Source: Candidatus Methanomethylophilaceae archaeon
Lineage (GTDB): Archaea > Thermoplasmatota > Thermoplasmata > Methanomassiliicoccales > Methanomethylophilaceae
Assembly (NCBI GenBank): GCA_017461225.1
Contig: JAFTYV010000035.1
Location: forward strand, 1 to 64,000
Direction of reading: 5' to 3'
Length of the DNA: 64,000 bases
Positions 1-18,024 of the stretch are shown here, one piece after another (the stretch's first letter is position 1; each line of letters begins with the position of its first letter). Both the position numbers and the translations under genes were made by a program. The notes under the pieces were generated by a model, which saw nothing but the letters and a program-made list of their open reading frames with translations, was not told the DNA's origin and searched no databases.

Positions 1-1740
1 AGGGGCTGACACCCTGCGCGATCGATGTGCTGGACAAGGGATAAGAAGTGGCCTTTCGTTCGTTTTGGTTACCACACACAAAAACAGGCCGAAAGGCCGT
101 CTTCTGCATCGGAATCCGACGTATTATGATTGTGGTCGTCGGCCTGTTGGTGTATGGTAGGCAGGATGATGGATTGTCCCGCAGGAAGAGCAGGATCGGG
201 ATCGGCATACCGACCCCAAATGACGATGTGACGATGCCGGTAGGCGCCAAGATGCTGACCGAGGCCGTGTTCAGGGACACGGGCCTCGACGAACTCCTCG
301 ATTCGCTCAAGCGCGACCAGGGGGCCTCCGTCTCCAGGGAGACGGTCGCCCTGGTCGCGAACTCCCTGGAGATGACCGGCATCTCGGTGAACAGGATCGA
401 TTCCATCCTGGAGAGTCGGGACGTCCGTGATGAGTACGGACTTGGGGCCGCGAGCCCCAAGTCCCTGTACCGCACGGTCGAGAGGCTGGGCAGGAACGTG
501 GACCAGATCGTCTCGCACCTCGGAAAGCAGCTGACGTCCAGGTACGGGGTGACCCTCGGGAAGGTGCTGATGGACTGGACATCGATGTACTTCGAGGCCC
601 CGGCCAACGGAACCGTAGTGAGGTTCGGTCACACCCGCGACCACCGGCCGGACAGGCCGCAGGTCGTGGTGGGCCTGTCCGTGGACCAGGCCACAGGCAT
701 GCCCGTGGGGCTGACTGTCATGCCCGGCAACATCCTCGATGTCACGCATTTCGAGGAGACCTTCCGGCAGCTGCTTCCGCTGCTGCCGGAGGATGCGATG
801 ATCGTGTTCGACAACGGCGCCTACTCGCGCACCAACTCCAAGGCCATCGACGACGCAGGCCTGGGATTCCTGACACGCCTGCAGCTGAACGCGTCGGATG
901 ACGCGTTCGTGAAGGCTCATCAGGCCGACTGGGAGTACGTGTGCGACGACATCTGCGTTCTGAGGACCAAGGGCAACCTCGGCAGGACCAGGTTCATCTT
1001 CCTCAGCCTGGACAGGCGCTCGGAAGTCCTGCGGGGATACTGCAGGAAGGCCGAGCACGACTACGACGACATGGTCAATCTGAGGAACGCGCTGGACAAC
1101 GGGAAGAAGCCGAGGAAGAAGTACCGCGTCTCCAACGTCTTCGTCGACACGTACCTCCACTACCGCTTCCCGCTGGCGTTCGCCAGCAGGGAAGCGGCGG
1201 TCGAACACGCGGTGAGGACGATGACATGCGGTCGCGAGGGCATTTTCGTGCTCCTGACAAACCGCCCGTTGACAGCTTAGGAAGCTCTGTCGGCCTACAG
1301 GTCGAGGAACGCGGTCGAGACCGCGTTCCGGGACCTGAAGCACGGTATCGACTGGAGGCCTGCCAGATGCACATCTCCGGATGCGATCAGGGGACGTGTG
1401 CTGATCTCGTTCCTGGCCCTGTTCTGCATGTCCATGGCCAGGTTCCTGTACCCCGAGCTGAGGACAATGACAGCGGAAACGATAGTCTCGGAGCTCACCT
1501 CGTTCTCACTTACGGTCCATACACGCAGGAACGGTCAGAAGAGGCGCATATTCAGCAACTTCGGGCGGGTCATCCGCGCTCTGTACGGTCGGAAACCGCC
1601 TGCCGAGGTGCCGAAGGCACCTGGACAGGTGGTTCTGGACCGGTTCGGATGACCCGATCAGGCTAACTGGGAACGGTGAAAACCACGGGAAAAACACAAT
1701 CGATCAGCGGGAGCTCTCGGGATTAAGTGTCAAACTCGGG
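1..1740 (+). mobile_element. Insertion sequence (IS4/IS1634-like), left end probably outside the window
   Basis: This stretch is dominated by one DDE transposase gene and ends where GC-rich DNA changes to the AT-rich island near 1.74 kb. I cannot define both ends. TGACAC occurs near base 8 and, inverted, near base 1728, and short GATCGAT-type matches lie inside both, but their spacing differs, so these are only candidate terminal inverted repeats. No target-site duplication can be checked because the left boundary is at or beyond the window edge. Confidence 0.6.
48..1652 (+). CDS. DDE transposase (IS4/IS1634-like) with an in-frame amber codon, probably pyrrolysine
   Basis: This is a cut-and-paste transposase of the RNase H-like DDE type. 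First catalytic Asp is about D176 (in LMDWTSMYF), second about D255 (in IVFDNGAYS). A TAG lies at 1278-1280 (codon 411). The same frame then continues for 123 codons to TGA at 1650-1652. That part holds the IS4-type Y-x2-R-x3-E-x6-K signature (Y417, R420, E424, K431), so the third catalytic residue lies after the TAG. The full product would be 534 residues, normal for the family; the 410-residue product would be inactive. The GTG start at 48 is uncertain: the first 60 or so residues look unlike the family, and the conserved part begins near base 233. The alternative is an element killed by a nonsense mutation, but nothing downstream has decayed. Confidence 0.85.
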
Positions 1741-1837
1741 TTTTTAATCAATAATGAGTAATTATCCTCAGTTAGATATATTTCAGGCATTTTTTTGACT
1801 TATCATATCTCATAAGTAGTGTTGACAGTTGTTTATA
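1653..1837. other. AT-rich spacer between the insertion sequence and the repeat protein gene
   Basis: Composition shifts abruptly from GC-rich to AT-rich near base 1735. No ORF or RNA gene is visible. The T-rich tracts just after the downstream gene's stop (reading leftward) could terminate it. Confidence 0.4.
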
Positions 1838-14864: not shown

Positions 14865-16163
14865 ATGAGCTACTCAGATTCACTATCTAAGACCCTGGAG
14901 GCACTCGGCGCTACCGAGGGGTCCAGGATGTCCGTCGTCAAGAACGGCAGGACGTACGTGGGGACACTTATGCCCCACCACGAGTTCAGCGCGGAGGATG
15001 TGCTGATACTCAAGATGAAGAGCGGTTACAACGTGGGCATCAGGGTCACCGACGACACCACCGTCGAGATGCTGGAGGCCCCCGCGGCACCCGTCAGGAG
15101 GGAGGAGCCCGTGGAGACCCGCGAGGGACTGCCCAGGCTCGTACTCATCGGAACCGGCGGGACCATCGCATCCTACGTCGACTACAGGACCGGTGCGGTG
15201 CACCCCGCCCTGTCCACCTCCGACATGATCAACGCCGTCCCCGAGATCAGGGAGATCGCCAACATCGACGCCACCGTCCTGTTCTCCATATTCTCCGAGA
15301 ACATGAACGTCGAGAACTGGCAGAGGCTGGCCGAGGAGGTCGCCGCACAGATCAACGCAGGTGCCGACGGCATCATCATCCCCCACGGGACCGACACCAT
15401 GGGCTACACCGCCGCCGCCCTCTCCTTCATGCTGGGCGACGTGTCGAAACCCGTCGTGCTGGTCGGTGCCCAGAGGTCCTCCGACCGTCCCTCGTCCGAT
15501 GCGTCCAGCAACCTCATGGCATGCGCCAGGTTCTGCACCGGTGCGGACCGCGCCGGCGTGTACGTCGTCATGCACGACACCACCGGCGACGACTCATTTG
15601 CCGTCCACATCGGATCCCGTGTCAGGAAGATGCACACCTCCAGGCGCGACGCCTTCCACAGCATCAACGCGGCACCCGTGGCGCACATCGACGCATCCGG
15701 CGCCATGGAGGTCTCCGCCGACGGACCCCGCGTGGGTTCCGCCGAGGTCGTGGCCAGGACGGGAATGGAGAGGGCGTGCGCCCTGCTCCAGTACTACCCC
15801 GGCATGGACCCCGCGCTCTTCGAGGACGTGTTCATGAGGTGCAGGGGGATCGTGATCTCCGGATCCGGACTCGGTCACGTGAACTCCAACATGATCCCGC
15901 TCATCAAGAGGGCATGCGACAACGGCACCGTCGTCGTGATGACGTCCCAGTGCCTCAACGGCAGGACCAACCTGAACGTGTACAACACCGGAAGGGACAT
16001 CCTGTCCGCCGGTGCGATCACCGTGCTCGACATGCTCCCCGAGACGGCGTACGTGAAGCTGATGTGGGTCCTGGCCAACACATCCTCCGTCGAGGAGGCC
16101 AGGGAGATGATGATGACGCCCCTCGCGGGCGAGATGTCCGACAGGAGGACCGTAGATGTCTGA
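14865..16163 (+). CDS. gatD: Glutamyl-tRNA(Gln) amidotransferase subunit D
   Basis: Asparaginase-like subunit that releases ammonia from glutamine or asparagine for GatE. The 432-residue protein has an N-terminal beta-barrel domain (1 to about 75), then the asparaginase domain with GTGGTIAS (catalytic T100), HGTDTM (T176, D177) and the DDSFAVH segment. Archaea without glutaminyl-tRNA synthetase use GatDE to make Gln-tRNA(Gln). The gene overlaps gatE by 8 bases, as expected for a stoichiometric complex. Confidence 0.96.
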   Translation: MSYSDSLSKTLEALGATEGSRMSVVKNGRTYVGTLMPHHEFSAEDVLILKMKSGYNVGIRVTDDTTVEMLEAPAAPVRREEPVETREGLPRLVLIGTGGTIASYVDYRTGAVHPALSTSDMINAVPEIREIANIDATVLFSIFSENMNVENWQRLAEEVAAQINAGADGIIIPHGTDTMGYTAAALSFMLGDVSKPVVLVGAQRSSDRPSSDASSNLMACARFCTGADRAGVYVVMHDTTGDDSFAVHIGSRVRKMHTSRRDAFHSINAAPVAHIDASGAMEVSADGPRVGSAEVVARTGMERACALLQYYPGMDPALFEDVFMRCRGIVISGSGLGHVNSNMIPLIKRACDNGTVVVMTSQCLNGRTNLNVYNTGRDILSAGAITVLDMLPETAYVKLMWVLANTSSVEEAREMMMTPLAGEMSDRRTVDV

Positions 16164-18024
16164 GGATTACGAGATGATGTGCGGTATCGAGATCCACCAG
16201 CAGCTCGACACCAAGAAACTGTTCTGCTCATGCGACAGCCGTCTCTGCGAGGAGGGTACCGGTGCCCACTACAGGAGGCTCAGGCCCACCAACTCCGAGA
16301 CCGGCGAGATCGACCGCGCCGCGCTCGCGCAGTTCCAGAGGCAGCTCGGCTACAGGTACCAGTGCTGCGACGGGACCAGCTGCCTCGTCGAGCTGGACGA
16401 GGAGCCCCCGCACGACGTCAACGCCGAGGCGCTCCAGACGGCGCTCACGTTCTCCGAGATGCTCGGGGCCAACGTCATCGACGAGATCCACTTCATGAGG
16501 AAGATCGTCGTGGACGGATCGAACACCTCCGGTTTCCAGAGGACCGCCCTCATCGCCACCGACGGTTTCGTCGAGGTCGGCGACAGGAAGGTTTCCATCC
16601 TCTCCGTCTGTCTCGAGGAGGATGCGGCACGCAAGGTCGAGACGAAGAACGACGAGGTCCTGTACAGGCTGGACCGTCTCGGCATACCCCTCATCGAGGT
16701 CGCGACCGGGCCCGACATGAGGACCCCCGAGGAGGTCATGGAGGTCGCTTTCAGGCTCGGTACCCTCCTCAGGGCCACCAGGAAGGTCAAGCGCGGTATC
16801 GGTACGATCCGTCAGGACCTCAACATCTCCATCCCCGGCGGGGCCCGCATCGAGCTCAAGGGTGTCGGGGACCTCAAGCTCATCCCCGACTACGTCAGGA
16901 ACGAGGTCAACAGGCAGAGGATGCTCATCAGGATCAAGGACATCCTGACGGAGCGCGGTGTCGCGGAGGTCCCGTTCGACCCCGTGGACGTCACCGGGGT
17001 CTTCGCATCCTGCGAGTCCAAGGTCATAAGGGGCGCACTGGACGACAAGGGCAAGGTCATCGCCGTGCGTCTCCCCGGTTTCGCCGGTGTCATGAACGGC
17101 GACAACAAGACCCTCAGGCTCGGATCCGAGATGGCACAGCGCGCCCGCACCAAGGGTGTCAAGGGCATATTCCACTCCGACGAGCTCCCCAACTACGGCA
17201 TAGAGCAGGGGACCGTCGACGCGCTCAGGGAGTACCTGGGCATGACCGGTGCCGATGACGCCTTCGTCATCTGCGCTGCGAGGGAGAAGAGGGCGAGGGA
17301 CGCCCTCGAGGCAGCCGTCACCAGGGCCAACGAGGCCCTCGTCGGTGTCCCCGAGGAGACCAGGGACCCGCTCCCGGACGGCACCACGAAGTACTCCAGG
17401 CCCCTGCCCGGTGCGGCCAGGATGTACCCCGAGACCGACGTCCCGCCCACCACCATCACGGACGAGAGGCTCCAGTGGACCAGGGACAACATGCCCGAGT
17501 TCCCCGAGCAGATCGAGGGCCGCCTGGTGGAGCAGTACGGCATCAACCAGCAGCAGGCCAGGCAGATCGTCAGGCAGTCCAACGACGAGCTCTTCGAGAG
17601 GATCGCCCAGGACAGGGCGATGGCACCCATCGCGGCCACAATGTTCCTCAACGTGTTCAGCGAGATGGAGCACGACGGCATAGACCTCGGTGTCTTCACG
17701 GACGACGACATCCTCGGCGTGTTCGCGCTCCTGAGGGAGGGACGCTTCGCCAAGGAGGCGCTGCCCGCACTCCTCAGGGAGATGTCCACCGGAACGGCCG
17801 CGGAGGATGCGATCAGGAAGCTCGGACTCGAGGCGGTCGACGCCGGCTAGGCCGCGAGGATAATCGAGCAGATCGTCAACGAGCGTGCGGATTTCGTACG
17901 CGAGAAGGGCATGGCGGCCATCGGCGGCCTCATGGGTCCCGTCATGGGCGCCCTCAGGGGGAAGCTCGACGGCAAGCAGGCGAACCAGCTGCTCACCGAA
18001 GCGATCAGGAAGCTCCTCGGATGA
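16156..18024 (+). CDS. gatE: Glutamyl-tRNA(Gln) amidotransferase subunit E with an in-frame amber codon, probably pyrrolysine
   Basis: Kinase and transamidase subunit that converts Glu-tRNA(Gln) to Gln-tRNA(Gln). The N-terminal GatB-like cradle (CGIEIHQQLDTKKLFC ...) is intact. A TAG at 17848-17850 is codon 565. The same frame continues for 57 codons (ARIIEQIVNERADFVREKG ... NQLLTEAIRKLLG) to TGA at 18022-18024. That segment is the ordinary end of the YqeY-like tRNA-binding tail (ERADFVREKG, GPVMGALRGKLDG) and brings the protein to 622 residues, the usual GatE length. Stopping at the TAG would remove the final helices. Reading UAG as pyrrolysine is the best explanation; a natural truncation or sequencing error is less likely because the downstream sequence is fully conserved. 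Confidence 0.93.

Follow-up and report, generated by a model that had tools for sequence, protein, structure and literature searches.

A probably tolerated in-frame amber codon ahead of the catalytic glutamate of an IS1634-family transposase in an archaeon with a complete pyrrolysine cassette

Archaea that decode UAG as pyrrolysine are known to carry transposase genes with in-frame amber codons. In Methanosarcina, one transposase family of M. acetivorans and M. mazei shares a conserved amber that is absent from M. burtonii (PMC2933860), two conserved clusters of amber transposases have been delineated (PMC3639795), and four amber transposase cases have been annotated (PMC1914089). For the methanogen ISO4-H5, 46 genes with an in-frame amber are described, and ten insertion sequences are listed among them (PMC5011839). 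In ‘Ca. M. alvus’, 1.6% of the genes end in TAG and the in-frame ambers have been explained as mutations that became stable, the putative pyrrolysine-containing proteins having arisen without any need for the residue; a tRNA-His guanylyltransferase is a further such case cited in that work (PMC4153887).

The insertion sequence described here resembles these precedents in part. As in Methanosarcina, an in-frame UAG lies in a transposase gene of a pyrrolysine-decoding archaeon and relatives without the UAG exist, but the Methanosarcina ambers are conserved over many copies in two species, whereas ours is found in one copy and is unconserved. The host belongs to the same archaeal order as ISO4-H5 and shares with it the pyl cassette and the presence of an amber in an insertion sequence (PMC5011839). 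Like the putative pyrrolysine proteins of ‘Ca. M. alvus’, the gene has an in-frame TAG where relatives have a sense codon, in a genome in which TAG stops are rare (PMC4153887); unlike them, it belongs to a mobile element and would be unusable in a host without pyrrolysine. Amber-containing insertion sequences being already known from Methanosarcina and ISO4-H5, the TAG reported here is of a kind described before.

We analyzed a stretch of 64,000 nt (the window) from a Candidatus Methanomethylophilaceae archaeon, the left edge of which is occupied by the element. Its features are as follows, with residues numbered from GTG 48 throughout.

1–1740, plus strand: insertion sequence of the IS1634 family, minus its left 42 bp
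174–1652, plus strand: transposase gene with one in-frame TAG, likely start TTG 174, frame open from GTG 48
573–575, plus strand: first catalytic aspartate, D176, invariant among aligned relatives
810–812, plus strand: second catalytic aspartate, D255, invariant in intact relatives and missing from the decayed copy L011
1278–1280, plus strand: in-frame TAG, codon 411 from GTG 48
1295–1340, plus strand: hairpin-forming stretch, 15 nt past the TAG
1296–1340, plus strand: Y417-R420-E424-K431 block with the third catalytic residue, E424, placed by alignment with relatives
1727–1740, minus strand: right terminal inverted repeat, CCCGAGTTTGACAC
1741–1747, plus strand: target site duplication, TTTTTAA

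The window begins where its contig (C4) begins, within the element. A second contig, C7, opens with the reverse complement of window positions 1–141, an overlap of the kind left by a de Bruijn assembler and marking a branch of the assembly graph, and the left 42 bp follow, reversed, at C7:142–183, so that the whole element measures 1782 bp with its right end at 1740. A branch inside the element hints at a near-identical variant in the source sample. The left terminal repeat (C7:170–183) is identical to the right one at 14/14 bp, these two ends are the only exact matches of the repeat in the genome, and TTTTTAA adjoins the left end on C7 as well; the element is thus inserted, has undamaged ends and occurs as a single copy. 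Separately, a regular array with a 66-base period, probably CRISPR, lies on the contig that carries the pyl genes (G000:C45:28–1031); its repeat, CTCGAGTTTGACAA, resembles the element end, probably by chance.

Over residues 57–511 the transposase passes the curated IS1634 model (NF033559 transpos_IS1634; 199 bits, cut-off 100). A structure prediction based on seven relatives (mean pLDDT 68) matches Tn5 transposase best among solved structures in the PDB (E 3e-6). If the TAG is read, the protein has the DDE triad D176, D255 and E424 together with the Y-2-R-3-E-6-K spacing of the IS4 group; along with the inverted repeats and the short target duplication, this places the element in the IS1634 family. 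Translation probably starts at TTG 174 rather than at GTG 48, since in three relatives a TGA precedes column 35 and the starts of relatives fall near column 43; counted from TTG 174, the TAG is codon 369 of 492.

The frame 48–1652 contains a single stop codon, the TAG, and then continues for 123 codons to a TGA at 1650–1652, as the initial annotation had described from the letters alone. The two aspartates lie 5’ of the TAG and the whole YREK block lies 3’ of it (Y417 at 1296–1298, R420 at 1305–1307, E424 at 1317–1319, K431 at 1338–1340), which bears out, by spacing and by homology to relatives, the block that the annotation had named. Its further claim that the catalytic glutamate can be reached only by reading UAG as an amino acid is supported too, as a product stopping at the TAG would lack E424. 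In the predicted structure residue 411 belongs to the opening turn of a helix (410–418) just ahead of the YREK helix. Because an open frame of 123 codons has a chance of about 10% by itself at 61% GC, as judged from genome composition, it is homology rather than frame length that supports a real continuation: residues 405–534 are 67% identical to the relative L018, and the part after the TAG can be aligned to every relative that covers the region.

The host has the complete machinery for pyrrolysine. Its pylS scores above the curated cut-off (267 bits), reading frames for pylB, pylC and pylD adjoin it, and pylT, a tRNA of 70 nt whose anticodon loop is CTCTAAA (CUA anticodon), lies between mtmB and pylS; ARAGORN detected no tRNA-Pyl in the host sequence, and pylT was located by a search with the anticodon-loop sequence of the published tRNA. 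Genes called by codon usage in a 138-kb sample of the genome numbered 112 and ended in TGA (95), TAA (11) or TAG (6). The six TAG-ended calls are mtmB, gatE, a GmhA-GmhB frame, the transposase, pylB and one ORF without a family match. The TAG is in-frame in the first four, that in mtmB being the classical case, and the unmatched ORF is probably spurious, so that only the TAG of pylB looks like a true stop. Three of these genes are located as follows.

16156–18024, plus strand, in the window: gatE (Glu-tRNA(Gln) amidotransferase subunit E), with an in-frame TAG at 17848–17850 and a match of 784 bits over residues 4–620 across the TAG
L071:10105–11139 (G000:C7:30105–31139), minus strand: GmhA-GmhB frame
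L069:4722–5840 (G000:C45:24722–25840), minus strand: pylB

GatE is essential. The TAG of gatE falls 58 codons before the gene end, the genome has no second copy, and the GatE matches listed from the family's other genomes are free of in-frame stops. We interpret UAG in the sampled sequence as mainly a sense codon, most likely read as pyrrolysine, given the pyl cassette, the near absence of TAG as a gene end in 138 kb and the in-frame TAGs in mtmB and the sole gatE. The strongest support for an amino acid at UAG comes from the rarity of TAG ends together with the in-frame TAGs, gatE included, much as in ‘Ca. M. alvus’. In the GmhA-GmhB frame, phosphoheptose isomerase and heptose bisphosphate phosphatase are separated by the TAG alone (GHOAVFIDRDDT) and the join lacks a Met codon; pyrrolysine may fuse the two proteins, or the genes may simply be neighbors. 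We also observed that pylB itself appears to be TAG-terminated, even though UAG becomes readable through the very pathway to which it belongs; a pylB ending in TAG has been reported for several Methanosarcinales (PMC2933860).

The initial annotation had proposed that conservation of the TAG across copies would support recoding, and such conservation is not seen. Codon 411 is a sense codon in 13 of the 14 related copies, namely GAG (4), TCG (4), TGG, GGG, CCG, TTC or TCC, so that the column holds S, E, W, G, P or F, and the one exception, L016, is a decayed copy with several further stops. A search of genome contigs for closer relatives returned only the same ones, 54–67% identical, and a search of viral contigs found no relatives. 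Relatives in hosts that decode pyrrolysine just as ours does also lack a TAG at 411, and some have it elsewhere. Two of them, L078 (Methanoplasma sp. Cf509_bin46) and L073 (Tb.RUG.29), resemble our copy as IS1634-family elements with a 54–59% identical transposase and one in-frame TAG, in pyrrolysine-decoding hosts that belong to the same archaeal family as ours; L078, 54% identical, is even bounded by the same terminal repeat, with a 6-bp duplication (ATCAAC). Unlike in our copy, their TAGs lie at columns 321 (L078) and 474 (L073). In a further relative, L107 (G049:C1:463783–465165), an otherwise full-length transposase has TAG in place of the codon for the catalytic Glu 424, which pyrrolysine is not expected to replace, and this in-frame TAG is plainly inactivating. 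In-frame TAGs thus scatter across positions, and some inactivate. Programmed recoding would call for a conserved stop position, which the relatives do not have.

Past the TAG, the sequence of our copy is both homologous and constrained, as in a pyrrolysine-containing protein. On a fixed tree, its terminal branch accounts for 13.6% of the total tree length before the TAG and 4.6% after it, the opposite of the decayed copy L011 (3.2% before, 10.4% after). The short branch gives no hint of relaxed evolution; the branch lengths argue against long-standing decay after the TAG and agree with the initial annotation, which had seen no decay there; the same pattern fits either translation or a very recent mutation. 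Stop counts did not serve as proof of recoding. TAG makes up 8 of the 10 in-frame stops in transposase matches, against 62% expected from the one-step nonsense changes in these GC-rich genes (P = 0.19), and the TAG share is what mutation supplies; any in-frame stop occurs in 6 of 74 matches from pyrrolysine-positive hosts versus 0 of 31 from negative ones (P = 0.12). A pyrrolysine insertion element after the TAG was likewise rejected: the hairpin at 1295–1340 stays within the range of synonymous shuffles (z = -1.6) and is not TAG-specific, the same hairpin being present in L073, which has GAG at the codon.

In ~600 kb of the related genome G014, we considered multi-copy elements with an internal TAG; the one with five identical copies has no TAG. 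Two other multi-copy elements there have a TAG only ~9 or ~22 codons before the frame end, where it may be the true stop. A TnpB-type element of this genome has three diverged copies (92–94%) that keep a TAG ~22 codons before the next stop, which could be either a stop codon or the start of a short pyrrolysine extension. These copies lie at the following positions.

L137:13738–15335: TnpB-type element
L141:5885–7475: TnpB-type element
L141:15577–17159: TnpB-type element

Bringing these lines together, we favor, with some reservation, the reading that an intact IS1634 element has gained a tolerated amber in its transposase gene, in a host where UAG stands mainly for pyrrolysine, and that the full-length enzyme is made. 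An ordinary insertion sequence of this family, with complete ends and resident in a pyrrolysine-decoding member of the Methanomassiliicoccales, would have acquired the TAG by a single base change, for instance from GAG, TCG or TGG, all of them codons of relatives and each one base change away, at a variable site where a helix begins. The tRNA-Pyl would then insert pyrrolysine at codon 411 and yield a full-length transposase with E424, and the mutation would be tolerated because UAG is mainly sense in the host and the full-length transposase is made. The dependence of this copy on pyrrolysine decoding would be a by-product, neither conserved nor programmed. We infer the incorporation of pyrrolysine, the activity of the enzyme and the origin of the TAG by drift; judging from the sequence comparisons, the full-length transposase is probably made and possibly active, and the pattern fits neutral, tolerated amber codons. 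Weighing against this reading, the single copy means that no TAG-bearing element is seen at several sites, the TAG could be too recent for visible decay, TAG is the commonest nonsense change anyway (62%), and the TAG in L107 is inactivating. We consider it unlikely, though deserving of attention, that the copy is instead dead, with a recent nonsense TAG, a transposase not usefully made and an insertion owed to an earlier intact protein or to another copy in trans. The sense codon that 13 of the 14 related copies have at 411, the single copy, the decayed relatives with several stops (L016, L014), L107 and the nonsignificant TAG excess all speak for a dead copy, but 492 codons without another lesion and with every catalytic residue, the slow branch after the TAG, the intact ends and target duplication, and a host that reads UAG mainly as an amino acid speak against it. 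Of the two findings that the initial annotation had set against its own proposal, a sense codon in most relatives is what we see, whereas an inactive relic is the less probable reading of this copy.

We give little credence to an assembly or strain artefact, in which the TAG would stem from a consensus error or a minor strain: the assembly is fragmented, the contig starts within the element and the 141 bases shared with C7 point to a branch of the graph, but that branch is more than 1 kb away from the TAG, the target duplication agrees across both contigs, and the frame has no other error. Very improbable, in our view, is a programmed switch in which UAG is read only part of the time, so that the pyrrolysine supply would set the proportion of a short DNA-binding product to a long active transposase and limit transposition, as happens in frameshift-controlled insertion sequences. 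The TAG does separate the N-terminal part from E424, UAG is decoded by the host and the element ends are intact; however, no intact relative conserves the TAG position, even in pyrrolysine-decoding hosts, the hairpin past it is not TAG-specific and the element has not multiplied. Equally far-fetched is transposition made conditional on pyrrolysine, with a short product that could block the ends when it is low, an active transposase when it is high, and a spread confined to pyrrolysine-decoding hosts and tied to methylamine metabolism. The initial annotation's idea of mobility tied to the genetic code holds insofar as E424 requires that UAG be read and the pyl cassette is complete, but not as a strategy of the element: with position 411 sense in relatives, TAGs scattered and their excess supplied by mutation, any need for pyrrolysine would be accidental and confined to a single copy.

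If pyrrolysine is inserted at a tolerated amber, as we favor, the activity of the element would depend on the genetic code of its host, a passive barrier to spread into hosts lacking pyrrolysine; this idea is already implicit in the Methanosarcina amber transposases. Several genera of the family, some of their genomes near-complete, have no PylS above the cut-off (G004–G007, G086–G094), and this loss of pyrrolysine decoding offers a comparison, inside one family, of what becomes of in-frame TAGs. More generally, UAG acts as sense in this genome even within gatE, a gene present only once, so that genes of this type are truncated by ordinary gene callers and may be taken for pseudogenes; standard annotation of gatE would give a truncated GatE.
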